From: Globisporangium splendens
Taxonomy: Eukaryota; Oomycota; Peronosporomycetes; Pythiales; Pythiaceae
Direction: 5' to 3'
NCBI GenBank assembly: GCA_006386115.1
Contig: VFIW01000025.1
Coordinates: forward strand, 124,001-188,000
Length of the DNA stretch: 64,000 bases
Positions 5,514 to 60,431 of the stretch are shown here, one piece after another. The notes beneath the pieces are model-generated. The model worked only from the letters and a program-made list of their open reading frames with translations, was not told the DNA's origin and made no database searches. The number at the start of each line of letters is the position of its first letter. The stretch's first letter is position 1. A program made the translations under genes and the position numbers.

Positions 5514-7059
5514 TTAGATGCCTTGGACCCACTCGTCGTCCTCGCCCCACTCATCCGAGGCTGCTCCTATCGACAGATCCTCCATTTCGACCGCGAACAG
5601 CGCCGAAGCCGCCGCTGCCGAGACTGGAGCTGCTGCAGCAGCACCTGGTCGATTAGAAGAGGAGAATGCTGGCTGGGAGAATGCGGATCGGGAGGCTGGC
5701 GGAGACGGCTGCACGCTTTTCTTGAACGTCGGCACCATTCCGAATTGCTAAATCAAAGACAAAGAGATACACACACAATCAGGTCAGCACCAGCTTCAGA
5801 CCAAGTGACTTGGTAACTGATTGATAACTTACGCTGAAGAGATCGTCTTCCTCGGTCTGTTTCTCCGAGTCTTCGTCGGACGGCTTTCCGGGCGATTTCT
5901 TCTTGGACGACGTGAATGGCGACGAATGCAACAGCACGGGATCATCCGTCACGACTTCGTAGGAATCGCTCGAGCTGTTGGACCCAGGTCCCGTTTCCTT
6001 GGACGTGGAGGCAGGAGCAGACGACGACACGAGGATGTCGTGCAATTCGGGCGCGTGACTTGATGGCGGCGGATTCAAATGGAATTGTGGCGTCGAGTGC
6101 TCAGGGGAATGATAAGAAGCAGCTACTGGTGCCGCTGCGAATGGATTTGGGTTCGCATACAGCGACGCATTGTACGCGTTTGTCGTGACAGGGCCTTCAT
6201 CCGAGAGTCGCCCCATATCGCCCTCCCAGTCATCCCACTTGTTGTTGTCGTTCTCGAAATCGTCTTCTTCTTCGTCGTCTTCGGCGCTGTTGGCGAAGAT
6301 GTTCTCGTGATCGTTCTCAATGCGGCTGTACTGCACTTTCGACGTGATCTTCTTGGACGAGCCGCTGCTATCCGAGACTCCGCCGTCCGTTGCACCGCCG
6401 CCACTGCTGCTGTACTTGCGTTTGCGCACCCACAGGATGAGGAAGACGCAGCAAATTGCAGCAAACGACACGAGTAGCAGCGGACTGCCCTGGTTCAGAC
6501 GGTTGCGCAGCGCAGACGAGTCGGCCACCGCCGCGTTTTCCGTACGCAGAAGCGGCTTCGTCGCGATCGGCTCAGGAGTCATCGACGGTGTTGCAGTAGG
6601 CGTGAGCGTCAGTGCCGTTGCCTCTGGCTTACTAGTCGGCGCTGGTTCTTCTTTAGGCGTCTCTGACATAGCCGCTGATGCTGGCGTGGGGGTCTCCTCC
6701 TCACCTTCCGCCATCGAGAGCTCCTCATCAAAATCAGCCTCGTCCGCTGGTTCCGGTGGCGTGGCACTCTCGCCACCCGCTGGTTTAGCGCTTTTCGCGT
6801 CGGCATCGACTGCACTCCTCTCGATTATTGCAGCCGTGCCTTCCGTATCCACATTCCCTTCTTCATTGGCTACATTGTCGTTGCCACCCGTACCTTCCGC
6901 GTCTTCTTGCGTGGCCATCTTGACGTCGACCGACTCTGGTTCATGCACACCAGCGGCAGTGCTCATTGCTGTGGCGCTGCCCGCATTCAACCCAGCTGCT
7001 GTCTCTTCTCCAGCTTTGCTGTGTTCTCTTGACGGGAAATTCGTTTGCTGCTGAGCCAT
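5514..7059 (-). CDS. Single-pass acidic membrane protein of unknown function
   Basis: Two exons: 7059..5833 and 5747..5514. The 85-bp intron starts GTAAGT, ends TTTAG and is phase 0, giving 486 residues. The Met at 7059 sits in a strong context (GCCGTCGCCATGG). Residues 1-190 are low-complexity and acidic/Pro/Thr rich. One hydrophobic span lies at about 192-210 and is followed by a basic stop-transfer sequence (VRKRK). The remaining 275 residues are acidic and Ser-rich, with Trp-containing acidic motifs (KWDDWEGD and DEWGEDDEW near the C-terminus). The exon junction creates DDLFSQFGMVPTFKKS, which looks like a conserved C-terminal motif and supports the splice. With no clear N-terminal signal, the topology is unsure. 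I do not recognise the family. Confidence 0.7.
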
Positions 7060-7445: not shown

Positions 7446-7932
7446 GGAAGAAGATAGGCTTTCGAGGAGCTGTGCAACTCTGTAGGGGTAGGGCGGCTCG
7501 ATAAAGTATCGATTCCTGTTGGAATTTATAAAGTGGTGGTTAGTAGGGGTAGGGGTGTGCCTGTTTTTGTGGCACAGGTTGCACACGAAAGAAAAGTGTT
7601 TTCAATATCTGGCCAATTTATATATGCAATTGTATGAAGTTGTAACAGAAGCATAGATTTTTTCTTGTGCAACTCGGAATTGTTGCACATGCAACACAAA
7701 CAGAATAAAGTTGTAAAGTTCAGTGGTTCCATGTACTGCACCTTGTGCAGTGCATATTAATGTAAATAAGTAGGAAAATGAACGATGTATATTTTCTGTG
7801 TGGTAGCACAACATCCGCATAACAGTATACATCGACTGGTCGCCAAAAAGTTCGCTACGTGTCGCTCACTGACGTTGAGGCACTGTATGCTTTACTTTTA
7901 AAACTGAGGGAGCGAGCGTGAAAGCGCCAGTA

Positions 7933-9987
7933 ATGGAGGACATTCCGCGTGACAGCTCCCTCTATGCAGATTGCACAGCAGGCGCGTTGATAGCAGCTGA
8001 GAGGCATCATCCTGCCACACGAAAAACTTACAGCGACGCCTTGTCGCGTTTTCAAAAGTTCTGCATTCAAGCGGGGTATCCCGATCCTATGGTGGAATGA
8101 TCGCACCTTCTACCTTACATGATGGTAGCGCACATGACGCAGCTCAGCGAGATCAACAAAACAGCGCACCCTGCGGAGAAGCTGCGTTCCGCAGTGGCCA
8201 ACTACTACTCGGGGGCACATATGACTTTTGATGGCCATCCGTCTGACAGGTATGGTCAAACTCTGGTCGGAAAGATGAGTTATTTGGATGGATAGGTTTG
8301 ACTATGTTGTAATCAATTTGAATAAAGGTTGATATGTTGCAGAAATTATGAAAGTGTGCTAATAATTCTGTTTGATTAACTCTGCAGGTGGGAAGTTCGG
8401 ACAGATGGAACGGGCAATCTCGTTGGGATTGGTAATCCTGCCAAATCGGTCATTGTGCGGCACTTCATGACCGGCCTTAACAAGGTGAAGAAATGAAGTC
8501 ATGTTGTGACTCGAGCGACTCCAATGGCCCTCGAGAAACTTCAAAAAATGCACGACTACGTGGAAACGCACCACCGATGCAACATCACGTTTGTGCTGTG
8601 GTTTAAGGCGGTATCGGCCTTTGCGTTTTCGGCATGTGCAGAATTTCGGAAGCGCTAAGTCTTCGAAAGAAAAATCTCGAGCTGTATCTTACACGGCTGG
8701 ATAAGGAAACCTTAAAGGAGATATCATTTGGACGTTTTACGCTTCAAGACCGCAAAACCGACCACGATCCCTCCGCAATGCGCATCTACAACATGTACAA
8801 GCTTCCCAATTACGAAAAAGCATGTGATGTTCTGGTACACCTGCGCGCGTGGTATGTCCACGTAGAAGAGGTATGAAGTTCGAATTGTTTGTTTTTGCAC
8901 AAGTCTGTGCTATACAGTGTGATTCCCAAAAATGCCATTACTTGCTAACCCGTGCCAATTTGTATGAATAGGAACTGGGCCATCAATGGAGAGATGATGA
9001 TCCGGTTTTCCCAGCGTTGAAAGGGATTCCACGGCAGGTCGAGGCGCCCACAACCACCGTGAAGTGGGGCAGCGAAATGAACGATAACACTTTCACCGAC
9101 ATTCTCGGCTATCTATTTGAGGCCAGCGGAATAACAAAGGATGTATTCGGGTCAAAAATTCGGTATACAGCACACTGTTTCAGAAGAGGCGGTGCTCAGT
9201 ATCGATTTATGTTCGCACCGGAAAATCAACGATGGTCCCTGAAAATGATCAAATGGTGGGCGGCGTGGTCACGCAATGAACGAACAGAAACTTTGTTGAA
9301 GTAAATGTTCATTTTTGTGCTATCATGTGATCGATATACTTAATTTGTAGCACTTATGTTTCTATTGTCTTGTTGTGCATGGAATGCTGTTATTGTGTGT
9401 GAGCAGATATTTGCTAGACGATATTATGGATCGCGAAGAGGGTGAACTTTCGGACGTTTTTGCACCTGACCGTCGTATTACTCAGACGTACGCAAGTGAG
9501 GAAAAGCACAGCAACTCCACCATTGTGTCCTTGGGTGAACACAGCTCCGTCGTCATGGAGCTTCAAGCGATTCGATCGGAAATGTCTGCGTTAAAGCGCT
9601 GTTTTGACGCAGCATTCAACCATAATTGTGATTCTGCAGTATTCTGCAGTTTCACAAGTCACCCACCAAGCAAACGCTAAGCGTCCTCAGCTCTCATCGT
9701 TGCCGGAGGTGGCGACATGGAAAGATTGTGTGACTCAGTACTGGACTGCTGATCCTTCGAGGCATCAGTTTCGCGCAGGTTGTGATTTCACAGCGGAGGA
9801 AAAACGACACTACAAAACACGGCTTTCGCGGATGAAGCTAATAGCATCCTACGTCAGGTTCTCATTTGACGACGATGTCCAAAACTGCGAGCGATTCCTC
9901 CAATCTCAGCTCGGCAACGAGTTGACTGTGAATGCGATTTGCAAATACCTTCGTCAGAAGAAAAATTACAAGACGCACTGCCCTTAG
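7933..9987 (+). pseudogene. Crypton tyrosine recombinase relic, unit 1
   Basis: Reconstructed exons are 7933-8249, 8388-8870, 8972-9300 and 9407-9987; the introns between them have clean GT..AG ends. Visible parts: an N-terminal core-binding (SAM-like) domain (RHHPATRKTYSDALSRF), box I arginine motif (CRISEALSLRKKNLEL), box II HCFRRGGAQ, a WW...W segment, and the catalytic Tyr in LLKYLLDD. A GCR1_C-like C-terminal DNA-binding domain follows (TWKDCVTQYWTADPSRHQF). Cryptons move by tyrosine-recombinase strand exchange, and this domain pair is typical of them. The copy is broken by an in-frame TGA at 8098, a second TGA about 8495, a frameshift just before box I (about 8630-8640) and a 10-bp duplication at 9631-9650. 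The box II to Tyr region is intact. The start is the first in-frame ATG. Confidence 0.82.
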
Positions 9988-10236
9988 CATAGTCGATCGA
10001 TCACATCCACACTACATAGTATTGCATCTCTTTAACTCTGATAAACAAGCATTTTTTCTTTGCCATACTAAATAGCACAGAAAGATTTCAATTCATACTT
10101 TTTTATACCAATTCATACACACTATACCAAACAGTTTATTTTTGAATGAATAAACCAAAAAAGTACGAATAGTGTTTAGTAATGATGTATTATGTGGGAA
10201 TTAAACTGAAAGTGTATTATTACTAAACAACTATGG

Positions 10237-11331
10237 AAGTTTCTTGAGAATAGCCACAATATTGGCTTTCATCTCTGTCATTTGCTGGTTAATATGAGAG
10301 ACTTCGCGCTGCAGGCTCGCGACCCGGTCTTCAAGCTCTGTAAGAGGGTGCTGTTCCAAACAGTCCCTCAAACACGGCACACACGCTTGTGCCAGAGGAA
10401 GCGATCTCCCGACTTGGAGGGAGGAACGAAGACTTGAGTAGTTGAAGGAAAATTTGCAACTGAATTAAAAATGGTTATGGTTCCTGTCGCTACTTGCTAA
10501 TGAACCCCAAGGGATCCTAGAGGTTTTATAACTAAAACCTAAATATACACAATAAAACCTATGAATCTGATATGTAAAACCTTGGGTACACTGAGGTTGA
10601 ACCTACGGGATCTTCGAGAAGCTTGAACTTCAAGTCTTATTTAAAATCCCTGCAAAGTGATTGGCTCGCGCCACTCACTTCAGGCGGCAGAGACACGTCG
10701 GTCTCGTCGCCAGTCCAGTTTCCCAAGCAGAAACCATCACTCAGTACTTGATTAGTACATGGATGTCATTACTCTGTACTGATTAGTACATGAGAACAAC
10801 ATTCTGCACTGATCAGCACAGAGAACACTCGTGACGTCATCGAATGACGTCACACGTGCATGTGGGGACTGTATTACCGTAATCCCTTTGTTATTTGTGT
10901 CTCCACAATGCACGCTGAAGGTGGTGTGTGCCACACTAGATCTGGGAACAGATCCACCTTCATGTAATGGCAGGTTTCAGCCCATTACAGTATCGCAATG
11001 TGCGCATGGATTGACGTTCTTTGCACCCTCTTACTGCAAACCACTCCGCCCTCTTCCACCAGGCAGCGATAGTAGACTACTGGATGGCTCTCCTTCTTTT
11101 TGCGTGTGCAACGGGTGGTAGTTGCAGGCGCGGCTGGTGCTGGTGGGTCGAGTGGCGGTATATCCGCACGCCAGGCTCCTCAGTTTGCGGCACCTGTTTG
11201 GCTGGCGCCTTCTGCCGCGCCTGAGCCTGCGTGATGCGCAGCGACCCACGTGACGGGATTGGGGTGGGGGAGCGCTTTGCGGGCGCCATGTTCAAACCCT
11301 CACTGAGAATGCCAGGTCGGCCATTCCCCAT
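10237..11331 (-). pseudogene. Possible second element gene (minus strand), unit 1
   Basis: Low-confidence gene relic convergent to the recombinase. The 5' part has an 84-codon frame from 11331 (or Met at 11289, MAPAKRSPTPIPS) with a basic, Ala/Pro-rich sequence. A second frame overlaps its end (about 11190 down to 10998) and reads RKKKESHPVVYYRC and EEGGVVCSKRV, a Cys/His pattern loosely like a BED-type finger. The 3' part (10440-10237) encodes a coiled coil with regular heptads (LEDRVASLQREVSHINQQM) ending in ILKKLP-stop. The middle (about 10440-10860) holds the palindromes and could be intron. I do not recognise the product. The same frames recur in units 2 and 3. Confidence 0.3.
10744..10858. 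promoter_or_regulatory. Phased palindrome block, unit 1
   Basis: Three dyad sites with GTACT..AGTAC-type arms: 10744-10758 (GTACTTGATTAGTAC), 10776-10789 (GTACTGATTAGTAC) and 10806-10819 (GCACTGATCAGCAC). Their starts are 32 and 30 bp apart. A 23-bp near-palindrome follows at 10831-10853, made of two TGACGTCA (CRE-like) boxes, and then a CACGTG box at 10853-10858. The spacing, about three helical turns, puts the sites on one DNA face. They could be recombinase arm sites or transcription factor sites. Confidence 0.55.
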
Positions 11332-11957
11332 TTTCTACCAATCATCATAAATTCATCAGAATTGCAATTCATGAGTGGACAAATGTAACTAATAATAATA
11401 AATGGTTGAATATACCTGCGAATTAACCAATCACAATGAGTTGCACACACCAAATCAAGGTTGCACAGCGGGAAGAAGATAGGCTTTCGAGGAGCTGTGC
11501 AACTCTGTAGGGGTAGGGCGGCTCGATAAAGTATCGATTCCTGTTGGAATTTATAAAGTGGTGGTTAGTAGGGGTAGGGGTGTGCCTGTTTTTGTGGCAC
11601 AGGTTGCACACGAAAGAAAAGTGTTTTCAATATCTGGCCAATTTATATATGCAATTGTATGAAGTTGTAACAGAAGCATAGATTTTTTCTTGTGCAACTC
11701 GGAATTGTTGCACATGCAACACAAACAGAATAAAGTTGTAAAGTTCAGTGGTTCCATGTACTGCACCTTGTGCAGTGCATATTAATGTAAATAAGTAGGA
11801 AAATGAACGATGTATATTTTCTGTGTGGTAGCACAACATCCGCATAACAGTATACATCGACTGGTCGCCAAAAAGTTCGCTACGTGTCGCTCACTGACGT
11901 TGAGGCACTGTATGCTTTACTTTTAAAACTGAGGGAGCGAGCGTGAAAGCGCCAGTA

Positions 11958-14012
11958 ATGGAGGACATTCCGCGTGACAGCTCCCTCTATGCAGATTGCA
12001 CAGCAGGCGCGTTGATAGCAGCTGAGAGGCATCATCCTGCCACACGAAAAACTTACAGCGACGCCTTGTCGCGTTTTCAAAAGTTCTGCATTCAAGCGGG
12101 GTATCCCGATCCTATGGTGGAATGATCGCACCTTCTACCTTACATGATGGTAGCGCACATGACGCAGCTCAGCGAGATCAACAAAACAGCGCACCCTGCG
12201 GAGAAGCTGCGTTCCGCAGTGGCCAACTACTACTCGGGGGCACATATGACTTTTGATGGCCATCCGTCTGACAGGTATGGTCAAACTCTGGTCGGAAAGA
12301 TGAGTTATTTGGATGGATAGGTTTGACTATGTTGTAATCAATTTGAATAAAGGTTGATATGTTGCAGAAATTATGAAAGTGTGCTAATAATTCTGTTTGA
12401 TTAACTCTGCAGGTGGGAAGTTCGGACAGATGGAACGGGCAATCTCGTTGGGATTGGTAATCCTGCCAAATCGGTCATTGTGCGGCACTTCATGACCGGC
12501 CTTAACAAGGTGAAGAAATGAAGTCATGTTGTGACTCGAGCGACTCCAATGGCCCTCGAGAAACTTCAAAAAATGCACGACTACGTGGAAACGCACCACC
12601 GATGCAACATCACGTTTGTGCTGTGGTTTAAGGCGGTATCGGCCTTTGCGTTTTCGGCATGTGCAGAATTTCGGAAGCGCTAAGTCTTCGAAAGAAAAAT
12701 CTCGAGCTGTATCTTACACGGCTGGATAAGGAAACCTTAAAGGAGATATCATTTGGACGTTTTACGCTTCAAGACCGCAAAACCGACCACGATCCCTCCG
12801 CAATGCGCATCTACAACATGTACAAGCTTCCCAATTACGAAAAAGCATGTGATGTTCTGGTACACCTGCGCGCGTGGTATGTCCACGTAGAAGAGGTATG
12901 AAGTTCGAATTGTTTGTTTTTGCACAAGTCTGTGCTATACAGTGTGATTCCCAAAAATGCCATTACTTGCTAACCCGTGCCAATTTGTATGAATAGGAAC
13001 TGGGCCATCAATGGAGAGATGATGATCCGGTTTTCCCAGCGTTGAAAGGGATTCCACGGCAGGTCGAGGCGCCCACAACCACCGTGAAGTGGGGCAGCGA
13101 AATGAACGATAACACTTTCACCGACATTCTCGGCTATCTATTTGAGGCCAGCGGAATAACAAAGGATGTATTCGGGTCAAAAATTCGGTATACAGCACAC
13201 TGTTTCAGAAGAGGCGGTGCTCAGTATCGATTTATGTTCGCACCGGAAAATCAACGATGGTCCCTGAAAATGATCAAATGGTGGGCGGCGTGGTCACGCA
13301 ATGAACGAACAGAAACTTTGTTGAAGTAAATGTTCATTTTTGTGCTATCATGTGATCGATATACTTAATTTGTAGCACTTATGTTTCTATTGTCTTGTTG
13401 TGCATGGAATGCTGTTATTGTGTGTGAGCAGATATTTGCTAGACGATATTATGGATCGCGAAGAGGGTGAACTTTCGGACGTTTTTGCACCTGACCGTCG
13501 TATTACTCAGACGTACGCAAGTGAGGAAAAGCACAGCAACTCCACCATTGTGTCCTTGGGTGAACACAGCTCCGTCGTCATGGAGCTTCAAGCGATTCGA
13601 TCGGAAATGTCTGCGTTAAAGCGCTGTTTTGACGCAGCATTCAACCATAATTGTGATTCTGCAGTATTCTGCAGTTTCACAAGTCACCCACCAAGCAAAC
13701 GCTAAGCGTCCTCAGCTCTCATCGTTGCCGGAGGTGGCGACATGGAAAGATTGTGTGACTCAGTACTGGACTGCTGATCCTTCGAGGCATCAGTTTCGCG
13801 CAGGTTGTGATTTCACAGCGGAGGAAAAACGACACTACAAAACACGGCTTTCGCGGATGAAGCTAATAGCATCCTACGTCAGGTTCTCATTTGACGACGA
13901 TGTCCAAAACTGCGAGCGATTCCTCCAATCTCAGCTCGGCAACGAGTTGACTGTGAATGCGATTTGCAAATACCTTCGTCAGAAGAAAAATTACAAGACG
14001 CACTGCCCTTAG
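11958..14012 (+). pseudogene. Crypton tyrosine recombinase relic, unit 2
   Basis: Same exon layout, domains and four lesions as the unit 1 copy, shifted by 4,025 bp. All open segments compared give identical protein sequence. The shared lesions mean this copy arose by duplication of an already broken gene, not by a separate insertion of a live element. Confidence 0.82.
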
Positions 14013-14255
14013 CATAGTCGATCGATCACATCCACACTACATAGTATTGCATCTCTTTAACTCTGATAAACAAGCATTTTTTCTTTGCCATACTAAATAG
14101 CACAGAAAGATTTCAATTCATACTTTTTTATACCAATTCATACACACTATACCAAACAGTTTATTTTTGAATGAATAAACCAAAAAAGTACGAATAGTGT
14201 TTAGTAATGATGTATTATGTGGGAATTAAACTGAAAGTGTATTATTACTAAACAA

Positions 14256-15354
14256 CTATGGAAGTTTCTTGAGAATAGCCACAATATTGGCTTTCATCTC
14301 TGTCATTTGCTGGTTAATATGAGAGACTTCGCGCTGCAGGCTCGCGACCCGGTCTTCAAGCTCTGTAAGAGGGTGCTGTTCCAAACAGTCCCTCAAACAC
14401 GGCACACACGCTTGTGCCAGAGGAAGCGATCTCCCGACTTGGAGGGAGGAAGAAGACTTGAGTACATGGAGGAAAATCTGCAACTAAATTGAAAAGGTTA
14501 TGGTTCCTGTCGCTACTTGCTAATGAACCCCAAGGGATCCTACACGTTTCATAACTAAAACCTAAACATACACAATAAAACCTATGAATCTGATATATAA
14601 AACCTTGGGTACACTGAGGTTGAACCTACGGGATCTTCTAGAAGCTTGAACTTGAAGTCTTGTATAAAATCTCTGCAAAGTGATTGGCTCGCGCCACTCA
14701 CTCCAGGTGGCAGAGACACGTCGGTCTCATCGCCAGTGCAGTTTCCCAAGTAGGAACCATCACTCAGTACTTGATTAGTACATGGATGTCATCGCTCAGT
14801 ACTGATTAGTACATGAGAACAACATTCTGCACTGATCAGCACAGAGAACACTCGTGACGTCATCGAATAACGTCACACGTGCATGTGGGGACTGTATTAC
14901 CGTAATCCCTTTGTTATTTGTGTCTCCACAATGCACGCTGAAGGTGGTGTGTGCCACACTAGATCTGGGAACAGATCCACCTTCATGTAATGGCAGGTTT
15001 CAGCCCATTACAGTATCGCAATGTGCGCATGGATTGACGTTCTTTGCACCCTCTTACTGCAAACCACTCCGCCCTCTTCCACCAGGCAGCGATAGTAGAC
15101 TACTGGATGGCTCTCCTTCTTTTTGCGTGTGCAACGGGTGGTAGTTGCAGGCGCGGCTGGTGCTGGTGGGTCGAGTGGCGGTATATCCGCACGCCAGGCT
15201 CCTCAGTTTGCGGCACCTGTTTGGCTGGCGCCTTCTGCCGCGCCTGAGCCTGCGTGATGCGCAGCGACCCACGTGACGGGATTGGGGTGGGGGAGCGCTT
15301 TGCGGGCGCCATGTTCAAACCCTCACTGAGAATGCCAGGTCGGCCATTCCCCAT
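14256..15354 (-). pseudogene. Possible second element gene (minus strand), unit 2
   Basis: Same parts as in unit 1: a 5' frame from 15354 (second Met about 15312) and a coiled-coil 3' frame ending at 14256, open from 14483. Here the coiled-coil frame gains an upstream Met because of small differences in the variable block. The function is unknown, and it may not be a gene. Confidence 0.3.
14767..14881. promoter_or_regulatory. Phased palindrome block, unit 2
   Basis: Sites at 14767-14781, 14799-14812, 14829-14842 and 14854-14876 keep the 32, 30 and 25 bp start spacing of unit 1. The right CRE arm has lost its dyad (TAACGTCA). The GTACT sites are unchanged although neighbouring bases differ. 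Confidence 0.55.
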
Positions 15355-15980
15355 TTTCTACCAATCATCATAAATTCATCAGAATTGCAATTCATGATTG
15401 GACAAATGTAACTAATAATAATAAATGGTTGAATATACCTGCGAATTAACCAATCACAATGAGTTGCACACATCAAATCAAGGTTGCACAGCGGGAAGAA
15501 GATAGGCTTTCGAGGAGCTGTGCAACTCTGTAGGGGTAGGGCGGCTCGATAAAGTATCGATTCCTGTTGGAATTTATAAAGTGGTGGTTAGTAGGGGTAG
15601 GGGTGTGCCTGTTTTTGTGGCACAGGTTGCACACGAAAGAAAAGTGTTTTCAATATCTGGCCAATTTATATATGCAATTGTATGAAGTTGTAACAGAAGC
15701 ATAGATTTTTTCTTGTGCAACTCGGAATTGTTGCACATGCAACACAAACAGAATAAAGTTGTAAAGTTCAGTGGTTCCATGTACTGCACCTTGTGCAGTG
15801 CATATTAATGTAAATAAGTAGGAAAATGAACGATGTATATTTTCTGTGTGGTAGCACAACATCCGCATAACAGTATACATCGACTGGTCGCCAAAAAGTT
15901 CGCTACGTGTCGCTCACTGACGTTGAGGCACTGTATGCTTTACTTTTAAAACTGAGGGAGCGAGCGTGAAAGCGCCAGTA

Positions 15981-18035
15981 ATGGAGGACATTCCGCGTGA
16001 CAGCTCCCTCTATGCAGATTGCACAGCAGGCGCGTTGATAGCAGCTGAGAGGCATCATCCTGCCACACGAAAAACTTACAGCGACGCCTTGTCGCGTTTT
16101 CAAAAGTTCTGCATTCAAGCGGGGTATCCCGATCCTATGGTGGAATGATCGCACCTTCTACCTTACATGATGGTAGCGCACATGACGCAGCTCAGCGAGA
16201 TCAACAAAACAGCGCACCCTGCGGAGAAGCTGCGTTCCGCAGTGGCCAACTACTACTCGGGGGCACATATGACTTTTGATGGCCATCCGTCTGACAGGTA
16301 TGGTCAAACTCTGGTCGGAAAGATGAGTTATTTGGATGGATAGGTTTGACTATGTTGTAATCAATTTGAATAAAGGTTGATATGTTGCAGAAATTATGAA
16401 AGTGTGCTAATAATTCTGTTTGATTAACTCTGCAGGTGGGAAGTTCGGACAGATGGAACGGGCAATCTCGTTGGGATTGGTAATCCTGCCAAATCGGTCA
16501 TTGTGCGGCACTTCATGACCGGCCTTAACAAGGTGAAGAAATGAAGTCATGTTGTGACTCGAGCGACTCCAATGGCCCTCGAGAAACTTCAAAAAATGCA
16601 CGACTACGTGGAAACGCACCACCGATGCAACATCACGTTTGTGCTGTGGTTTAAGGCGGTATCGGCCTTTGCGTTTTCGGCATGTGCAGAATTTCGGAAG
16701 CGCTAAGTCTTCGAAAGAAAAATCTCGAGCTGTATCTTACACGGCTGGATAAGGAAACCTTAAAGGAGATATCATTTGGACGTTTTACGCTTCAAGACCG
16801 CAAAACCGACCACGATCCCTCCGCAATGCGCATCTACAACATGTACAAGCTTCCCAATTACGAAAAAGCATGTGATGTTCTGGTACACCTGCGCGCGTGG
16901 TATGTCCACGTAGAAGAGGTATGAAGTTCGAATTGTTTGTTTTTGCACAAGTCTGTGCTATACAGTGTGATTCCCAAAAATGCCATTACTTGCTAACCCG
17001 TGCCAATTTGTATGAATAGGAACTGGGCCATCAATGGAGAGATGATGATCCGGTTTTCCCAGCGTTGAAAGGGATTCCACGGCAGGTCGAGGCGCCCACA
17101 ACCACCGTGAAGTGGGGCAGCGAAATGAACGATAACACTTTCACCGACATTCTCGGCTATCTATTTGAGGCCAGCGGAATAACAAAGGATGTATTCGGGT
17201 CAAAAATTCGGTATACAGCACACTGTTTCAGAAGAGGCGGTGCTCAGTATCGATTTATGTTCGCACCGGAAAATCAACGATGGTCCCTGAAAATGATCAA
17301 ATGGTGGGCGGCGTGGTCACGCAATGAACGAACAGAAACTTTGTTGAAGTAAATGTTCATTTTTGTGCTATCATGTGATCGATATACTTAATTTGTAGCA
17401 CTTATGTTTCTATTGTCTTGTTGTGCATGGAATGCTGTTATTGTGTGTGAGCAGATATTTGCTAGACGATATTATGGATCGCGAAGAGGGTGAACTTTCG
17501 GACGTTTTTGCACCTGACCGTCGTATTACTCAGACGTACGCAAGTGAGGAAAAGCACAGCAACTCCACCATTGTGTCCTTGGGTGAACACAGCTCCGTCG
17601 TCATGGAGCTTCAAGCGATTCGATCGGAAATGTCTGCGTTAAAGCGCTGTTTTGACGCAGCATTCAACCATAATTGTGATTCTGCAGTATTCTGCAGTTT
17701 CACAAGTCACCCACCAAGCAAACGCTAAGCGTCCTCAGCTCTCATCGTTGCCGGAGGTGGCGACATGGAAAGATTGTGTGACTCAGTACTGGACTGCTGA
17801 TCCTTCGAGGCATCAGTTTCGCGCAGGTTGTGATTTCACAGCGGAGGAAAAACGACACTACAAAACACGGCTTTCGCGGATGAAGCTAATAGCATCCTAC
17901 GTCAGGTTCTCATTTGACGACGATGTCCAAAACTGCGAGCGATTCCTCCAATCTCAGCTCGGCAACGAGTTGACTGTGAATGCGATTTGCAAATACCTTC
18001 GTCAGAAGAAAAATTACAAGACGCACTGCCCTTAG
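15981..18035 (+). pseudogene. Crypton tyrosine recombinase relic, unit 3
   Basis: Same exon layout, domains and four lesions as units 1 and 2, shifted 4,023 bp from unit 2. Its 3' end (18035) is followed by the same AT-rich hairpin region. Confidence 0.82.
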
Positions 18036-18278
18036 CATAGTCGATCGATCACATCCACACTACATAGTATTGCATCTCTTTAACTCTGATAAACAAGCAT
18101 TTTTTCTTTGCCATACTAAATAGCACAGAAAGATTTCAATTCATACTTTTTTATACCAATTCATACACACTATACCAAACAGTTTATTTTTGAATGAATA
18201 AACCAAAAAAGTACGAATAGTGTTTAGTAATGATGTATTATGTGGGAATTAAACTGAAAGTGTATTATTACTAAACAA

Positions 18279-19378
18279 CTATGGAAGTTTCTTGAGAATA
18301 GCCACAATATTGGCTTTCATCTCTGTCATTTGCTGGTTAATATGAGAGACTTCGCGCTGCAGGCTCGCGACCCGGTCTTCAAGCTCTGTAAGAGGGTGCT
18401 GTTCCAAACAGTCCCTCAAACACGGCACACACGCTTGTGCCAGAGGAAGCGATCTCCCGACTTGGAGGGAGAAGAAGACTTGAGGGCTTGGAGGAAAATT
18501 TGCAACTGAATTAAAAATGGTTATGGTTCCTGTCGCTACTTACAAATGAACCCCAAGGGATCCTACAGGTTTGATAACTAAAACCTAAATATACACAATA
18601 AAACCTATGAATCTGATATATAAAACCTTGGGTACACTGAGGTTGAACCTACGGGATCTTCTAGAAGCTTGAACTTCAAGTCTTGTGGAAAATTCGCTGC
18701 GAAGTGGCTGGCTCGCGCCACTCACTTCAGATGGCAGAGACACGTCGGTCTCGTCGCCAGTCCAGTTTCCCAAGTAGGAACCATCACTCAGTACTTGGTT
18801 AGTACATGGATGTCATTACTCTGTACTGATTAGTACATGAGAACAACATTCTGCACTGATCAGCACAGAGAACGCTCGTGACGTCATCGAATGACGTCAC
18901 ACGTGCATGTGGGGACTGTATTACCGTAATCCCTTTGTTATTTGTGTCTCCACAATGCACGCTGAAGGTGGTGTGTGCCACACTAGATCTGGGAACAGAT
19001 CCACCTTCATGTAATGGCAGGTTTCAGCCCATTACAGTATCGCAATGTGCGCATGGATTGACGTTCTTTGCACCCTCTTACTGCAAACCACTCCGCCCTC
19101 TTCCACCAGGCAGCGATAGTAGACTACTGGATGGCTCTCCTTCTTTTTGCGTGTGCAACGGGTGGTAGTTGCAGGCGCGGCTGGTGCTGGTGGGTCGAGT
19201 GGCGGTATATCCGCACGCCAGGCTCCTCAGTTTGCGGCACCTGTTTGGCTGGCGCCTTCTGCCGCGCCTGAGCCTGCGTGATGCGCAGCGACCCACGTGA
19301 CGGGATTGGGGTGGGGGAGCGCTTTGCGGGCGCCATGTTCAAACCCTCACTGAGAATGCCAGGTCGGCCATTCCCCAT
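18279..19378 (-). pseudogene. Possible second element gene (minus strand), unit 3
   Basis: Same parts as in units 1 and 2: a 5' frame from 19378 and a coiled-coil 3' part near 18279-18480. The 5' end lies about 170 bp from the mucolipin gene start, so the CCAAT-box region between them could act in both directions. Confidence 0.28.
18791..18905. promoter_or_regulatory. Phased palindrome block, unit 3
   Basis: Sites at 18791-18805, 18823-18836, 18853-18866 and 18878-18900 have the same spacing as units 1 and 2. One inner base of the first site differs (GTACTTGGTTAGTAC); the arms are kept. Confidence 0.55.
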
Positions 19379-19380
19379 TT

Positions 19381-19480
19381 TCTACCAATCATCATAAATT
19401 CATCAGAATTGCAATTCATGATTGGACAAATGTAACTAATAATAATAAATGGTTGAATATACCTGCGAATTAACCAATCA
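19381..19480. promoter_or_regulatory. CCAAT-box cluster upstream of mucolipin-like gene
   Basis: CCAAT at 19385-19389, ATTGG (reverse CCAAT) at 19421-19425 and CCAAT at 19474-19478 lie 70-170 bp before the mucolipin-like start codon. The cluster is inside repeat unit 3 and is also present in units 1 and 2. An initiator-like GCTTCATTTTCATC lies at 19536-19549, immediately before the ATG; used as the start site, it would leave a very short leader. Confidence 0.4.
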
Positions 19481-19549
19481 CAATGAGTTGCACACATCAA
19501 ATCAAGGTTGCACAGCGGGAAGAAGACACCTGTCTGCTTCATTTTCATC

Positions 19550-21598
19550 ATGCGGAACCAGTGTGCACAGGAGGAGCTGCGGCTGCGTGAGCCGCTCCTG
19601 GACGCCGACGAGCGCGATTCCGACGCAGCAGCAGAAGTGAAAAGTGATGCGCGCTCTACAAAGCGCGCCGCTAAACCCATGGCTGCCGTGGAGCAGCTCA
19701 TGCTCTCGCCCTACGAGAAGTGGCTCACGCACGGACGGTTCCCGTACAAGATCGTGCTGCACGTGCTGCTGCTCGTGCTCACGTGCGCGCAAATGGGCAT
19801 CTACGGCGCGCAGAACGCTTCGTACATGCGCGCGACGCACAGGAACTGGTACGTGGCATACACTGATGGCGAGTTGATGCCTTATTGCGGTCCTCACTGA
19901 TGTATTCCATGTCATTCGTAGGGCGTACTTCTTTCTTCCACCTGCGGCAGAAATCGGTGTCGTGTGCGCACCTAATGCGTTATCTATATTACGCCGAGTG
20001 CGCATCAATTTTTGCTAATGCTTTTGATTGTTGTGTGCGTGTAGACCTCGGTACCAGCGCGAGTTGTTCACAGTCAACGAGACGCTGGAGGCGCTGGCGT
20101 TCATGCGCGACGCGTACTTCTCGATTGGGAACACGTCAGTCGCCAACTACGAGTACCTCCTGACGCCGTCAGGACAAATCGCTCCAATGCGAATGCGAGT
20201 GACGCGGCGTTTACCCCATGGAACGCTCAATACGACGACGTACGACATCGTGGAGGACCCGCGCGCTGCGATCGGACCGTTTGACCCGACCATGAGCCTC
20301 TGGCAGCAAAGGTACTTGCTGCGATCACTATATGCGATCAAGTTCTCGTTCCGACTGAAGGATCTCCAGTATGGCGATTACTACGAAGAGTGCTTCCAGT
20401 GGCACGTGCACGTGAGCTTCACGATGATCGAGAACGCACAGCTCAAGGCCGAGATCGACGAATGCCACGTCGCGCGATGCACGAGTCGGTCCTTCTGGAG
20501 CGCGCTCAAGCAGCGGTTCGTGTGGCTGCACATCGTCATCGCGCTCGTCGCGCTCGTGTACATGGTGCTCAGCATGAAGGCACTGGTGCGGTCCTACCGG
20601 ATGTAAGTCCTCCACACTTTATGCGAGGCTTTGACAGAGTTAAAGTATGTTAAATCGCTTTGCTTCTATTAGGATAACTCGAGCGCGAGAGCTTCTTCAA
20701 GAGCACGTTCAAAATGAAAGAGGCAATGGGGCTACGGACCTAGGCACACAGCAAGAAGCAGCAAGTGACGAGCAAACGCTTCGTCAGCAGCGTTTCAATC
20801 GGCTGCAGAGTGATACGTTTGGCGCGTGGACGAAGATCCCATTTGCGCTCAAGTTGAAATTGTTCAATGGCCTGTACGTACACTCTCTTGCGTATACGTG
20901 CTATTCGCTATTTAGTGCATGAACCTCACCATATTCGTTATACTTTTGTATCAATCCATAGGCAATTGGTCGTGTTCACGTCGCTGGCGCTGCTGCTCTT
21001 GAGCTCGCTGTGGAGCCTGTTTTTCCTGAAGGCGTACGTGCCGATCCACTTTTGGCACCGCCTGCTGCACGCGACCGCGCTGCTGCTGCTCTGGAGCGGT
21101 CTCGTCGGGTACTTGGAGCACAACAGCCACATTTACTCGATCGTGCTCACGCTCAAGTGGGGCGCGCCGCGCGTGCTGCAGTTCCTCGTCGGCGTCTCGC
21201 CGATCTACATTGGGTACGCGCTGTTTGGCACGATCTACTTTGGCGCGCGCATCAAGGAGTTTGGGACGCTGAGCGCGTCAACGGCGACGCTGTTCGCTGT
21301 CATGAACGGCGACGTGATCCTCGACACGTTTGACGCCTTCGATGTGCACCATTTCTCGGTCTCGGGCAAGTTGTATTTGTACTCGTTCATCTCGCTGTTC
21401 ATCTACGTGGTGCTCAACATCTTCATCGCGATCGTCGAGGAAGCGTTCTTCGCGACGCGGTCGTGCAGACGCACGCTGAGCATCCTGCTCACGGACCCAG
21501 CGTTCGAGACGGCCAAAGTCGCGCAGGAGACCGAGATCTCGGCGGAAATGGTGCGCGCATTGCTGCGCTTTGCGGACTCGGAGGACGAGAACAAGTAA
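19550..21598 (+). CDS. Mucolipin-like TRP cation channel (TRPML family)
   Basis: Four exons, about 572 residues: 19550-19872 (donor uncertain), 20045-20602, 20673-20873 and 20962-21598. Introns 2 and 3 are unambiguous (GTAAGT and GTACGT donors). For intron 1 the frame is kept by GA|GTTGAT, a poor donor; TAC|GTGGCA with acceptor ACCAG also works. Domains in order: a charged N-terminus, TM1 (YKIVLHVLLLVLTCAQMGIYG), a large lumenal loop, a second TM (WLHIVIALVALVYMVLSM), then a TRP/PKD core. The pore carries NGDVILDTF, matching the NGDD selectivity filter of mucolipins, and is followed by LYLYSFISLFIYVVLNIFIAIVEEAF, the conserved S6. Mucolipins release Ca2+ from endolysosomes in response to PI(3,5)P2; that role is inferred. 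Confidence 0.88.
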
Positions 21599-22680: not shown

Positions 22681-25600
22681 CTAGAACCGCGTAGATGCCA
22701 AATCCGGTCGGGCACGGTTGCACACTTCGCAGTAGAAACTCGAGATCGGGTTGAAAAACGTGCATCCTCCTTGTTCGCCTGCGCAGATCCACTTGCCACG
22801 CGGCACTTCGCGTTGTCCGTCCATTCCGAGCTCACAGATCGCGCACGCAACGTCATTTGGCTGGTTGATAAACGTGCAATTGCCACATCGCCAGCCTTGT
22901 TGACTTCCACTGCTACCTGCCTTGGCATCGTGAAGTTGTGGGTTCGGTTCGTTACATGCCCCGCATGCTTCGGCTGCGCCTTCGTTTGCAAACGTGCAAA
23001 CAGGGCAATTCCACATCGCCAACTCCTCTTCTTTCAAACCACCACGTTGCTTAATCACGTCTTTTTCCAGCGCTTCTTCCATTTGTGCCTTGGAAATACT
23101 GAAGGCTGCACAAATCGTTTCCATGGGAACTCCTCCCTTGGCTTCAAATGCACTCACATCCGCGATGAGGCTGATGATCTCATTCAACTCGGCCGACGAG
23201 TAGCCAAGTTGGAAACTTTCAAAACATTTCAAGATCTCTTCGGCAGTCAAACGGCCATCTTCGTTTTCATCAAAGCGGTGCAATGCTGGCGCCAAGTGGA
23301 ACTTACGCTTCTTCTGCTTGAGACTCTGTTGGAACTGCTGCATGCGAGCCCGCGCACTCAGCAGATGCCACTCGTCCTTCTTTGTGAACACCTTTGCAAG
23401 CGGAGTGTCGCCCCAAAGATGGCGCTCTCGTCGTCGAAGTCGCAGCAACGCCTCGAAGAACTCATGACGCAACGAAAGAGGGATCTCAGCAAGTCCGTCA
23501 AGCAACAATTCCAGTTCAGAAGGCGAGAAGTACATCTCATTGTTGAAGAACCGCAGGCACTGAATGCCAACCGCGACTTGTCGTTGACGGGGCGAAGTCT
23601 CCACCGACGCAGATTTGCTCCAAGATGCAGAGAACGAAGAGCTTTCCACCAGTTCGCCTTCGCAAGTTCGAAGTTGCACTTGACTTGCTTGGAACACTGG
23701 GTGGTTCTTGTGAATCATTCGACGGATCGTTTCTCCTTCTGCCAACGACAGCGCGACCAAATACACCGGCATTGGATCAACCACTGACTGAACGTCGGCT
23801 TTGAGAGCAGCAGACACCTCGTTCTCTTGCAGCGATGGCAGCTCCGACGCAAGCCCCAGAGCCTTCACCGCTGCTTCGTTTGGTGCAATGCCCGGATTCT
23901 CAGTCATCACTTTCACAAACAAGTGGTGCACGATTTTCTTCATGGTCTCCTGCTGCGACAGCGGTGACCACTCCAAAATCAAGCCAATGTTTTTCACGCG
24001 ACGCTCGCCGAGACCAACCCACCGACGTCGGAAATAGTTCCCGGACACAAGCAGTTGGGACGGGAACGCGATTGCAGGACACTCGGTGTGCGCCTGGAAT
24101 TTGGAAAATGGATAAAACACGCCATCTTCTTCGTCTTTTTGCATGTCGGGCGCCTGCGCAAGAACGGAAGCAGTCCATGGAATCGGGTGCTCGTCATCTC
24201 GTGTGAAAGCGCTCATCTTTTGCTCCTCTTGCTCAGCTTCCTCTTCTGCCTCTTCTTCAGCCTCTGCTTCGTTCTCATGCACGACTTCGGCAGTGAGCCG
24301 CATGTCGCCCTGTTCGGTTCCATCTTCTGCAAGGTGGTGACTCGAGGAGTACGCTAAGCGCTGCTTGACTTCTCCGATTCGCTGTCTCTCTTGCTCCGTT
24401 TGCAAGAACGTGCCGTTTTTGCTCACGAGAATATCAATCACCTCGACCAAATCCTTTTTGATTGGCACACTGCTCTCCACTGCATACGAGATCTCTACGC
24501 GGAACTTGTTCACGCACTCTCGTAGCCAGGTCTTCGAGTCTTCCGGTCCAATGAACCTTCGCATGCGCGCAGTAATAGACCGGTTCGCTTGACCATCAGT
24601 CGACCCATCGACAGTATGCTGATCAATTTCATCCATCAGAGAGTTCAAAGCACGTTTACGCCACGTATTGTGGAGCTCTTGCAAAGACAACTGAACGAGT
24701 TGCATCGACTCCATTCGCATCGAGTTGACCAACAGCCACGCAGGTACCAGCAGCAAATACGCACTGAGGTCCTTCGTTTGTGTCACCAGTTCTACAGACT
24801 GTGAAAGCTGCATTTCGTGGCGAATACGGTTCTCCACTTCTGGAATCAAAAACAGGTGAATCGACTGACCCGTTTCGATACCACGCATGCGATATGCTCC
24901 TTGCGCGTAATCTCGGAACGTCATGTCTTTTCCTAGTGTCACAACTGCGCACGCATTGACGCACTGCTTGATGTCCATGCCGGTTGTATGAACTTGGTCG
25001 TAGAATGTAAAGCGCTTTGACGGGCTCAGACCGCACTGAATCAACGGCATCGGAGCGTTGTGGTCTCGCAGTAAGATCATTTGACGATCTTCGCTGTCCA
25101 AATACACCACACCTTCCATTGAAGCAGGCAAGTGTGAGAGCAAGAAAGCGGCAACTTCTTGGTTCTCGAAGCCTGTGATCAACGCGCCAGTATCAATAAG
25201 CGCATGATACGGCGGGTCCGCTCGCGCAATATCCAACAGCAGACTCTTCGCAGTCCAATTGACTTTGCGCTCAATCGACACAATGCGGTTGTTGGTAAGC
25301 GCTTGGAAAATGCTACCGTCACTGCGAGGTTCGTAGTAGCATTCGCCGAGATCCATTGGTAAAAGATTCGAAGGCGTACCCGAAAATCCGATGCGCTTGG
25401 CGAAAAGCGAATTACTACCCAGTTCGTGACCGCATGCCGAGATTTTTAGCTTCTGGAAGTTCATGCACGACGGGAAGACATGCTGACGGACATAGTAGTA
25501 CACGACACCCGCAAGCTTCGCAACCAAGAAATGCAGTCGAGCTACTTGAGCAGAGTCTCGCAGCTGGAACAAAGGAAGCGGCAGCACGCCTGCACCCAGC

Positions 25601-28600
25601 TGCTTGTTTGTTCTTTCATCTCTGATAGACTCCGCAAGCCCGGACGTGACCCATTCACGGAATGTAGCACAGGCAGGTCGCTGGTCTCGAGGTCCGAGTT
25701 GTCGACTAAAATCTTGCTTCAACTGCGACACAATGCGCACGAGATCCGACACGCGAATGCCTTCGTAGCGATATGCCAAGATAGTTAGTCCAATGAGCAC
25801 ATCCGGGTGCGCAAACTCGGACGAACGACTTGGCACATCTTTACCAATGAAAGGCACAGCCAAAAGAAGACGAGAGTGCGAGTTGCCACTCCCACTGGCT
25901 GCCAACGTCGCATGCTCTCCTCGCAGCAGACCATAAGAGACCCGGTTGATCTTGGACAGCACGTGGGGTAAAATCGTACGCAGCCAGTCTCGAGTCAGGT
26001 TCAATAGCTTGATCGACATGTCAGAGAGCCCTCCTCCCACTTGACTTCGTAGAGCCTCGTTACTTTGGAGCTCAGCACGAGAGCACTGCAAATAGTGCTT
26101 TACCGCGTCGATATCCACATCCATCTTCCCCATGCGAAAGTGCTTTAGTAGCCATTCGAGAGAGATGTCCGTGAGAATCGGCATCATCTTCGTCTCATAG
26201 AACTCCATATCCAGGAGAACGAGATGCGGAAACTTTTGGAGCGAGTGAAGCTTGTATCCTTCCGCTAGCACTTCATGAAGTTGGTGCACCAGAGCGGATG
26301 GACGACTGACTTCGCTGGTTGTGTCCGCAAGAACAGCATCGATGAGATGGATCGGCAACTCCCATCGATTCGCAGCGAGATCAATTGGGAACTTGTTTCC
26401 AATTGGGAAGTTCAGCTCAGAGCGAAGTGGATGCAGAAGCACATCGACTTCGTCCATGATCAAAATCCCATCTTGCCACAGGCGAATGACTTTGTAGAGT
26501 TCATCAGCCATCTCGGATCGATCTTCTAGCGTGCGACGAATGCGTCGGATATTCTGTGAAGATGCCAAAACAGGCAGCTGGATCACATCAGCAGACTCTT
26601 CCAGCGAGTGCAGTAACTCGACAAGCTTCAGCATCATCGACTTGATTGACTCGGGCGACGCACACACGACGTCCCCGTGCAAACGTGCTCGATTTAGTTT
26701 CACCAACAGCTTAATCGCATTGTTCGGATCATCCGACACAGAGCGATCGAACTCAAACGTGAAAATACGCTTGCGGAGAACGAGGTTACTGAATCGGCTT
26801 CGCAGCACTTGCCGAGATTGCTCCAAGAGAGCTGTTGGCATCACGTGAGTCACGAGATGCTGCTTGTCAGCGAGAATGTACGTCAGCAACGGACCGACGA
26901 CAGTCGTTTTACCCGCTCCCATGATCATTTGTTGCACTCGTGAATCGCCTCTGCTCAAACTTGCCAAGAAGCTATCGATCATTTGCACTTGGCGTCCACG
27001 CAGCAATAGGTCGAACACGTATTCAAACACAAGGAAGCGTGGGTCAAACTTCCAACACAAAGCATCCGATTTCTTCAGATAGTGCCGTTTCGACAGCAGC
27101 ATGTCTGCCAAATCTTTGGATGCCTGGAGCGTTTGCTTCGACCGATTGGCAATGTCACTTGCAGAGGTTGACGCTGAAGATACCAATTGAGACAACAGCA
27201 CTCGCGCAGACTGGATCGTCCGATTGATGTGAACGATACGGTTGCAGACAAAGAGTACACTCAAAACCCGCTCGGTCATATCTGCTGGGATGCTCCTGAC
27301 AAATGGATTGCGCGACTTCAGATCCCGTTCAAAGGAATCCGACGCCATCAATGACGTCAAAAAGTCAAAAGTGACTCGAGGGAAGCAGCCAATACGTCTC
27401 TCCATAAGGAAGCGTCCAACTTCAACTTGCTCACGCTCCTCCGTGGCGATTGTGGTCTCATTCATAGCTCGCTCGATCGTCAAGATGTATTCCTCAACAA
27501 AAGCACGGTCTTTGTTTCGCAGGCTCTCGCACGCAGCAATGAGCTCATGAAGATTGCTCACCGCAGATCCACCCGACAGCGAGACCTCCATTGGCGTCAC
27601 CCCCGTGACGAACGCATCCTTACTCTCGTTCACGCTTTTTGCATTGATGGCAATGTCATCACCCAATCGCTTCAATAGATCTTTGGCAGCAGCAGTTTGA
27701 GCTGCTGGGTGATTCGAGAGATCAAACGGCAGGCTTGACGTGGCTTTACGATCTGGATCACAAAACGTTATGAACTTCTTCACGTCCATCGAGTCCAGCG
27801 GAAACTCGGGATTGATCATGTCTTTCGTAGGCACCGAAAACGATCGCTGTTCACACGACGCATTCGATGGTTCGAAGTGGTTACTTGATCCTGCTGGCTC
27901 GAGGGCCACCTGGAACACTGCATCGGCCGTGTCGTGGACACGACTAAACTGACTTTTAATCGGTCCAATGACGCGTTCTTGATGAGTCTGGGTCTGCAGT
28001 TTGTCTTGGAATTCCACTACGCCATTATCGAAGAAATGCTTGAGCAGCGTCCCATACGTCATCTTCGAGTACAAATTCGCTCCACGAGAGAGCAGCTGCG
28101 TGCTCTCATGGTCACAAGGTGACGCCGACCATAAATCGTTTGGATATGCAACTAGCAGTGCCAGCTGTGCGATCGGATACGATGGGACACTTTCTTCTTC
28201 GCCTTCTTCAACTGTTTCACGACCCCAACGCGAGATCTTCAAATGCAGGAATCGCAAGAAAAGATCTCCAAATGAATGCGTGCATTCATCATCCCCCATA
28301 CGAATAACGAGTTGGTGGTTCAGACACTCGTACAAGAACAAAAAGCCCAAGCCCCGGTTGCTGCCGCTCACTTCATCTCCAACCACAGCGCAGTTCCAGA
28401 CAAGCTTAGCAGCTTCTTCGTCATCAATCAGGAAAGTGTTGTCGATTCCCGCAGAGTGCTTTGGTCGGTTGTACCTCACAGTTGAGAGCTTTTTCCCGTG
28501 CGACGACATATACTCCTTGCCGAACATTCTCAGTTTCATCCACGGTTGTCCGCCAACCCGGTTTCTCGTTAGTTTGAACTCAAAAGTTGCTGAGTTTGCA

Positions 28601-31600
28601 CTGTCAACGTGATCGCAATACGCTTTCCTCATGCTAAGCAAAGATGATCGCTGGTGGCAGTTTGCCAAGGCTTCTTTTTCTTCTTCCATTGTCAACCTGC
28701 ACGCTGCATCAACATGCGTCACGGCAGAGAGATAATCGTGAAGCTCTGGTTTCAACTTCCAAGGCACCTTGTTATCGCTGTATGCAAGGCCGAGCGATAG
28801 ACGAATGCGACAGGCACATGCATTTGGATGACGATCGTCGAGAGTCTTCCCGAGCTGGTCAAAGATCCACTTTTCTTCATCGGTAAACTTCACATCCACA
28901 TTGCATCCCACAATCAGCTCCATTGCAGCCGAGTAGTTTCGCGAAAGCAGGCTCGTAAGAATGAGATAGAGCGTGGAGCTGAGAGATGGAGGGAGCAAAA
29001 ACGTATGACTCGAGTGAATCGGATACGAGTAAAACCTGGTCTCCATCGCTTGCTGCCAGCCCATCGACGCACGGTCTGTCACAAGAAGCTTCGAAAACGG
29101 TTCACCTTGCACGGCTGGGCGATAGATATCGTGATTCGGGCAGACAAGCTTCAAATCTTTCGTGTCTGACTCAAGCACAAAGCAGTCTGGGGTAAGATCG
29201 ATGATTGACTGAAGGTACGCTGACAGCCCGCCTCGGGTTCCGAACGTTAGATCGCTGATACTCCACCCGTTTTGGTCCATAACATCCAAACGGATCGATC
29301 CTGTTGCCTCCTCCTTTCGCGGCTTCAACTTTAACTTCAATCGCGGGAGCTCAATAAAAGCGATCGATGAGGTACTGACAGCAGCATCTCCACCATGCAC
29401 ACACCAAATCAAGATGTGGGACAAGTCTTCGACACGAGACAGCAATCTTGACAGCGCCAGAATATCTTGAGCTTGGCTTGACTTGACTTCAAGAGTGTTC
29501 AGCAAGTAGAGGGTTTCACCATACGCCTCTTCGACAACTTCCATCGTATCACCGTCGTCCTCTTGCTTTGTTTCCTCATCAACATCCATTGGAGTCGGCA
29601 GGCTCTTGTCGGCAGATTCCTTCCGCTCCGAGTCTGCTAACTCCACGCGACAAACTTCTTCTTGGTTGCTCGCATCACCTAACCACGCCTTTGCCAGATC
29701 TAAATCGCGACTAAAGATGTCCAACGCGTATTCAGCAGCGACTCGTGACGGCCGAGTCTCCAGACTCATCAAAATCGCAATGTTTTGCTCATGAATATCC
29801 TCTTCGCTCATGGGCAAATCACCCGATTCGGCAGCAACTTCCGCTTGAATGATTTTCATCTGATTTGCTTCGTCCAAGAGCCACTGAGCAGCCACACCAA
29901 CGTTATTGTGATTTTCACGCAATGACAGAGTGCAAGCTGCATACGAAAATCCCATCGCCATCAGCTGAACAACGTCTTCGTCTTGAATCTCAAACGTGCC
30001 TTTTGATGCAGGCTTCGCTCTCTCTCGAGTGGACGGTGAGACCGTAGCGACAGGTGCTGGAGGCGGCTTTGCACTGGCAAACCCACTCTTGTCGCGGCGA
30101 TTGGAGATTCGAGAAAATGACGTCTTGATCGACTTTCTTGAAATGATTGCGGTTCTATCGTCAATGATATCCACTTCCACTCGATATCGAAACCACTGCG
30201 ATTTGACATCAACTGGTTCGCCACGAAGTTTGTTGTCATTTCCCAACCAAAAACGGAAAGCTTCCAGCAAACAGCTCGGAACGACACCTTGCAACAAACG
30301 CGGTGGAACAAATTGCTCTGTACCATTCAGCGCCAGGTTTCGCCGCAGAATCACCAGAGTGCCGCCATTAGTTTGGCGTTCACGAGGATCTCCAGCTGCT
30401 CGAAGCAACAAAGGATCTTTCGGTCCGTCATCAGGCGACACATTGAGAGGGAACCCGTGCAAACTAAGCCGAGAGTTGGACGTGAAAATGAGCTTACGAT
30501 GCAACCGGCGGCCGTGCGTCACGAGACTGTAGATATGCAGCACCTTGTGCTCTCGGTAAGCAACAATCTCTTTGAAAGTCGCCATCTTCTCTTTGTCTTT
30601 TTTGTCTTTCGGACCCTGGTCGTGGCCAAGAAGCTGAACGCGAGTAGCTGCCGGCGGAAGCGGATCTTTGGGCAAGAAAAACGTAAATTGCAGCTTCTTG
30701 TCTTCTGGATCTGGTGGATACTGCAAACGCAATACACCACCCACAAAATCAGCAAACCAGTCTTCATCAGGATACGGGTGATCTTTATCAGAGTACGGAT
30801 CAAACGGGCGAGAAAACGTTTTCCCAAGATATGCATATCCATCTCCGATAGATTCGTCCGGTTTGCCCGATTGCGTTGGCTGTGGCTGCCGCGACACCCG
30901 AGGGGTTGCGCAAACATCACACACAGCATTAGGGTTATCACCGTTGAAGTTTGCACATGTACACGCGGGACATTCCCAGTACATCTTCAGCTCTTCTTGC
31001 TCTGCATTTTCACTTTCAGTACCAGGTTTGTACAGAACAGGAGCACCAACGCCTTGGTCAAGTGGATCTGTTGGATCATCCCATTCCACCAATTCGAAGT
31101 CTGAACCGATAATGTTTACCCACAGACGATGCTCTTGTCTGGCAACAAGACCACAATGAAGCGACTTGTTCCCAAAAATTGCCTTGAAATCCGCGTACTG
31201 CGTCATAGAATCCGGAACAGGCTTCAGCTCGTCGTTACGCCAAAGAATTTCACCAGTCTGAGTATCTAGCTTGAGCTCTGTCTTCTTGCAGTAGTATCTT
31301 CCCGTACTACCCACATTAGCTCCTTCGCTCCAGTCGTAGCTGGTATTTGAGTCAGTTGATCGCAACGCGATGCGAACAATCGATCCAAGGACTTCGTCTC
31401 TACTGTCTCTCGCCAAACCGGTCAGCCACTTGACAACTGCACGGCGGTGAATCTGAACCGTCTCAAACATCTCTTCTTCAAGCACTTCTCCTGGTGGAAG
31501 CTGCAACTCGTTCCCATCCCCATCACGAAGAGCAACAATACTTGGGGCTTGTATAGTTTGCACACCAATCTTCAAATACAGCGGACGCCCTTTGAGATAC

Positions 31601-60036: not shown

Positions 60037-60068
60037 GCAGTCGAGTTGAAGTTCTGGTCGGGTGAGGG
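58816..60068 (+). repeat. Inverted repeat, left arm (1,253 bp)
   Basis: Matches the reverse complement of 60223-63133 once the LINE insertion and one target-site copy are removed. Both arms are then exactly 1,253 bp. I noticed one substitution by eye. The arm covers codon 106 of the glycosyltransferase through about 32 bp past its stop. The spacer between arms is 60069-60222 (154 bp). Confidence 0.85.
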
Positions 60069-60416: not shown

Positions 60417-60431
60417 ACTGCGGTAGATCTT
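60417..60431. repeat. LINE target-site duplication, copy A
   Basis: ACTGCGGTAGATCTT, next to the A-rich 3' end of the LINE. Confidence 0.85.

Follow-up and report, generated by a model that had tools for sequence, protein, structure and literature searches.

A dead composite element, recently duplicated in tandem, probably accounts for a three-unit array in an oomycete genome, with the middle of a solo LTR later overwritten in at least two of the units by ectopic conversion or cDNA; from the sequence we put the probability of this reading at roughly 65%. The array lies in a 64,000-nucleotide stretch of DNA (the window). The genome is that of an oomycete close to Globisporangium ultimum, a neighbouring signal-peptide-peptidase-like protein being 95% identical to its G. 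ultimum counterpart over 89% of its length. Observed here are the array itself, its composite structure, lesions common to its units, differences between units that are confined to the LTR apart from two substitutions, and a conflict between the edges and the middle of that LTR.

The units abut head to tail at 11470/11471 and 15493/15494, and the three lengths of 4,025, 4,023 and 4,024 bp given in the initial annotation were confirmed to the base from 7446 to 19517 (Table 1). The exactly repeating junctions that it described were also borne out: one 9-bp word, GGAAGAAGA, opens every unit and stands at each of the four array borders. On the + strand of the window GGAAGAAGA is found at 7446, 11471, 14448, 15494, 19518 and 62302, four of these six sites being array borders, one lying inside unit 2 (14448) and one elsewhere (62302). 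No difference among the three units occurs in the first 2,978 aligned columns. Past column 2,978 the LTR has 43 variable columns (42 by the LTR alignments), and the rest of the unit has two substitutions, located at 11375 and 11450 in unit 1. Pairwise differences in the non-LTR part, 3,374 bp per unit, are 2, 2 and 0, units 2 and 3 being identical throughout it. This near-identity and the repetition of the junctions are beyond chance; the confinement of the remaining differences to the LTR, save the two substitutions, was overlooked in the initial annotation.

Table 1. Coordinates of the array and its component features in the window.
Feature	Position	Strand	Remarks
Unit 1 of tandem array	7446-11470	+	4,025 bp
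Unit 2 of tandem array	11471-15493	+	4,023 bp
Unit 3 of tandem array	15494-19517	+	4,024 bp
GGAAGAAGA at left border of array	7446-7454	+	
GGAAGAAGA closing the array	19518-19526	+	bases after it differ from unit start
Outer element, putative left end, unit 1	7446-7649	+	unit bases 6-208 match C119
GCTGTGCAAC, left inverted match	7469-7478	+	pairs with 11460-11469
GTTGCACAGC, right inverted match	11460-11469	+	pairs with 7469-7478
Dead Crypton-type element, unit 1	about 7650-10135	+	copies on C184 and C147
Dead Crypton-type element, units 2 and 3	about 11675-14160 and 15698-18183	+	same offset as in unit 1
First recombinase reading frame	7933-8100	+	in-frame stop 8098-8100
Second recombinase stretch	8389-8676	+	stops 8494-8496, 8656-8658; exon border is our reading
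Open catalytic exon, H..RRGGAQYRFM box	8972-9304; also 12997-13329, 17020-17352	+	
Outer-element stretch between Crypton and LTR	10135-10338	-	35-aa frame ending in stop
Solo LTR, unit 1	10339-10989	+	651 bp; without target-site duplication
Solo LTR, unit 2	14364-15012	+	649 bp; flanks as in unit 1
Solo LTR, unit 3	18387-19036	+	650 bp; flanks as in unit 1
LTR middle differing between units	10424-10846 (unit 1); 14449-14869 (unit 2); 18472-18893 (unit 3)	+	
Right part of outer element	10990-11470	-	open frames of putative gene remnant

The initial annotation had proposed a genome search for solo units. When the left 300 bp and right 400 bp of the unit were used as queries against the 53.3-Mb assembly, the units of the array were the sole places matched at full length; a single unit dispersed elsewhere was not found. 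The 500 bp of left flank searched in the assembly are single-copy, so no second haplotype contig is visible on the left side. The array as a whole, a single occupied site, has the 9-bp direct repeat GGAAGAAGA on either side. Nine base pairs is the typical target-site duplication length of Mutator-like TIR transposons, and the repeat suggests either a target-site duplication or microhomology. The array starts 386 bp from a putative minus-strand gene start at 7057-7059, likely from the reading of the frames, and its closing repeat ends 23 bp ahead of an ATG (19550-19552), the probable start of the polycystin-type channel gene recognised at 20858-21598. Elsewhere in the window, a minus-strand frame at 22681-35733 stays open without interruption for 4,350 aa. 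A long inverted repeat at 58793-63156 has arms of 1,082 nt that are 99% complementary and 2,200 nt apart, and within it lies a second inverted pair (59860-60074 and 60217-60431).

Judged by its sequence, the 4-kb unit is a composite of an outer element, a dead Crypton and a solo LTR. Its description as a Crypton-bearing unit in the initial annotation was right in that each unit holds a Crypton-type recombinase relic, but the Crypton makes up only part of the unit. A Crypton copy on contig C184 (L039), 93-94% identical to that of the array in a genome DNA comparison, and a 157-bp left-end fragment on C147 (L040) have different flanks and a common left border about 205 bp inside the unit; the right border, about 1.3 kb before the unit end, is based on the C184 copy alone. 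The borders of these copies, lying inside the unit, rule out the 4-kb unit as a Crypton and its borders as Crypton ends. By eye, no terminal direct repeat common to the Crypton copies was recognised, with the right border taken from C184 only. An LTR related to that of the array interrupts the recombinase gene of the C184 copy (L039:5078-5688).

The recombinase gene is broken by identical in-frame stops in all three units. Because the first 2,893 bp are identical across the units, these lesions are common to them, and it follows that the unit was duplicated after decay or that decay was spread by homogenisation. Given the common stops and this identity, separate insertions of an active Crypton are unlikely. 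Nor is insertion by this Crypton at its own end, one of the routes first suggested for the array, supported, since the junctions are not Crypton ends and the recombinase stops are common to all units. A circle or unequal crossing over, also named in the initial annotation, may have built the array.

The gene of the inner element is, on the evidence of its catalytic exon, of the tyrosine-recombinase kind, as is characteristic of a Crypton. Aligned with 34 relatives, taken from 36 in the database and making 35 rows with the window exon, it has an invariant H..RRGGAQYRFM box, with H68 and R71 unchanged throughout. Pfam matches among the 35 rows were weak, with Phage_integrase in 17 (best E 0.0013) and DUF3435 in 20 (best E 0.00012). 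The window's own catalytic exon matches no Pfam family, and Pfam found nothing for the window's recombinase pieces or for those of L039. A profile of the catalytic-exon alignment matched the integrase IntI4 with an E value of 0.005; the structure model of the exon, with a mean pLDDT of 66.7, was too poor for use. Six other matches of the exon, all partial or diverged, fall in five places (C184 twice, C173, C56, C89 and C67). Four of the six contain stops; those on C89 and C67 have none.

The left end of the putative outer element has a counterpart on contig C119 only, at 78% identity, and the match stops where the Crypton starts; used as a genome query, the C119 sequence found only itself and the three units. 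We take the minus-strand frames on either side of the LTR as presumably one gene. These remnants are the only coding sequence seen in the outer element where a transposase gene was sought, and a genome search with the 61-aa gene remnant returned nothing but the units below E 0.29. A possible short relative of the outer element lies at L041:4898-5455 on C119, in purine-rich flanks, where CAAGG..TGTGCAAC ends face each other at a distance of about 0.5 kb; 4 of 300 random pairs are equally well matched.

The solo LTR belongs to a family with about 950 candidate places in the genome (951, 957 and 960 by three queries, 40 scored for each). Our comparisons used 38 family LTRs, a biased sample made up of 17 from among the best unit-1 matches, one LTR from L044 and 10 each from the unit-2 and unit-3 lists; two diverged L043 LTRs were left out, as were matches not exceeding 600 bp, that in L039 among them. 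At L044:5041-6704 (C89), several pieces of the LTR seen in the array follow one another head to tail, all with the same orientation.

In unit-1 coordinates the variable LTR columns all lie within 10423-10846, and the LTR ends agree between units over 84 and 143 bp from the two LTR ends. Unit pairs differ at 28, 25 and 31 columns in the LTR middles, against 0, 1 and 1 at the edges. Among the 38 family LTRs the median number of differences is 12 in the middle (range 4-27) and 7 at the edges (range 1-21). The unit middles, at 25-31 differences, are farther apart than most family pairs, whereas one edge difference or fewer is seen in only 1 of 703 family LTR pairs. Moreover, at edge positions such as 10972 and 10977 the units have alleles in common that few or none of the 38 family LTRs possess. 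Of the 42 unit-variable columns, 29 also vary among 20 family LTRs; of the remaining 614 columns, 137 do (Fisher p 8e-10). All alleles are present among the 38 family LTRs at 25 of the 42 unit-variable columns; 17 unit alleles are absent from these LTRs, 4 of them being present in the diverged L043 copies. Random sequencing error is an unlikely source of the differences in view of the 25 columns with only family-known alleles, though 17 alleles are absent.

Trees of the two parts disagree. In the edge tree the three units are united (99/94, with the bootstrap not settled). In the middle tree they are scattered: a single clade of three is rejected (p-AU 0.034), while clades of two units are not (p-AU 0.19-0.27). 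The middle is a tract in conflict with its flanks, as an ectopic gene conversion tract would be. No donor of the middles was found among the 38 family LTRs, the nearest of which differ at 12, 13 and 15 middle columns. For two LTR pairs 7 kb apart, each pair taken as one element, the middle/edge differences are 9/4 and 6/8. The edge and middle pattern of the units is as expected if dispersed LTRs acted as partners in ectopic conversion.

We suggest that a 2.5-kb Crypton invaded an old outer element and then decayed within it. The lack of a target-site duplication around the solo LTR suggests that this LTR was left in the unit by rearrangement. The GGAAGAAGA-flanked segment would then have been duplicated in tandem recently, and the simplest and most likely route is either a microhomology event over the 9-bp repeats or the homologous reinsertion of a circle. 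On the circle route, the circle junction would read GTTGCACAGCG/GGAAGAAGATAGG. Unequal exchange between 4-kb copies could have set the copy number at three. Finally, two or all three of the units may have had their LTR middle overwritten from different dispersed LTRs, through ectopic gene conversion or through retroelement cDNA, because this LTR has hundreds of close partners elsewhere. The sequence of these events, the route of duplication and the part played by conversion are inferred. That two converted tracts should have similar limits is a mild coincidence, which counts against the conversion reading, as do the failure to find a donor among the 38 family LTRs, the unit alleles missing from them, the wide distance between unit middles relative to most family pairs, and the clades of two units that the middle tree does not reject.

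The array is known from the assembly alone, and its copy number or its LTR middles might have been scrambled during assembly of a repeat with so many places in the genome, the edges being kept correct by reads anchored in unit-specific sequence. Anchoring by read length would also make the stretch farthest from the unit-specific flanks the only one to differ, and the unit alleles absent from the family sample point the same way. Such an effect is nonetheless unlikely. A single copy would hardly yield three different LTR variants, each set between unit-specific flanks, and these variants appear to speak against a plain assembly duplication; the LTR differences follow the polymorphism of the family, and neither of the LTR pairs 7 kb apart has an excess of differences confined to its middle. 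Tandem copies evolve in concert, and the array could instead be old, with LTRs long separate and everything but the LTR middles homogenised within the array. Although the identity of units 2 and 3 outside the LTR would suit such a history, homogenisation should take in the LTR as well and would have had to spare its middle alone while leaving the edges nearly identical, which makes an old array highly improbable.

The junctions themselves could be read in favour of site-specific amplification, in which the 4-kb unit would be a non-autonomous mobile element whose ends are recombined in trans and whose circles integrate at an existing copy, a tyrosine recombinase or transposase acting on the 10-bp inverted arms around GGAAGAAGA. 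Consistent with this are the exact repetition of the junctions, with one 9-bp word per border, and the inverted arms GTTGCACAGC/GCTGTGCAAC, which would fit transposon ends and face each other over each internal junction; moreover, the C119 relative begins at base 6 of the unit and has its own facing ends. However, as terminal inverted repeats these arms are equalled by 4 of 300 random pairs, and a genome search for ends of this type gave 10 matches against 8 in the reversed control. The arms are 24 bp apart, compared with the 6-8 bp spacer of tyrosine recombinases described in PMC3212892, the unit's own recombinase is broken, and dispersed single units are absent from the assembly. We consider amplification of this kind quite unlikely, and no likelier that the junction is a working recombination site through which the composite amplifies as circles in trans.

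If the duplication of a dead composite followed by replacement of LTR middles is real, the array is a natural side-by-side test in which each unit's 3,374 bp outside the LTR gained at most 2 differences over the time that two or all three of the LTR middles were replaced. Exchange among dispersed LTRs would then outpace point mutation in an oomycete, and LTR divergence would be a poor clock in such a genome. The analysis also corrects the earlier reading of the array as a tandem Crypton.

Each single process has precedent, and it is their combination, with the non-LTR sequence as internal control, that makes the case useful. Oomycete genomes have Cryptons whose terminal direct repeats are 5 or 6 bp long, and Crypton repeats at both ends are given as 4-6 bp (PMC3212892). 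The inner element of the array is likewise short, with a tyrosine recombinase gene and an oomycete host; by contrast, the array unit is larger, its borders are not Crypton ends, its gene is broken and its Crypton copies have no recognised common terminal direct repeat of 4-6 bp. Neither a tandem Crypton array nor a tandem-forming habit of Crypton-bearing elements was seen among the titles and abstract openings listed, which is no proof of absence. In the passages of PMC5844308 consulted, a Crypton comes up solely through a resemblance to a satellite, which the authors did not regard as significant. Head-to-tail multimers are described for the DNA transposon KolobokP, with unequal crossover, circle reinsertion and a replication route proposed (PMC9587614). 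There, as here, arrays run head to tail with a direct repeat common to neighbours, but KolobokP has long terminal direct repeats whereas the repeat of this array is 9 bp and its unit a dead composite. Solo LTRs help gene conversion at the wtf loci of fission yeast (PMC11497594). Solo LTRs of a dispersed family take part in gene conversion there, as they probably do in the array; at the wtf loci, sequence upstream of driver genes is altered, whereas in the oomycete array the change is apparently confined to the LTRs of tandem dead elements.
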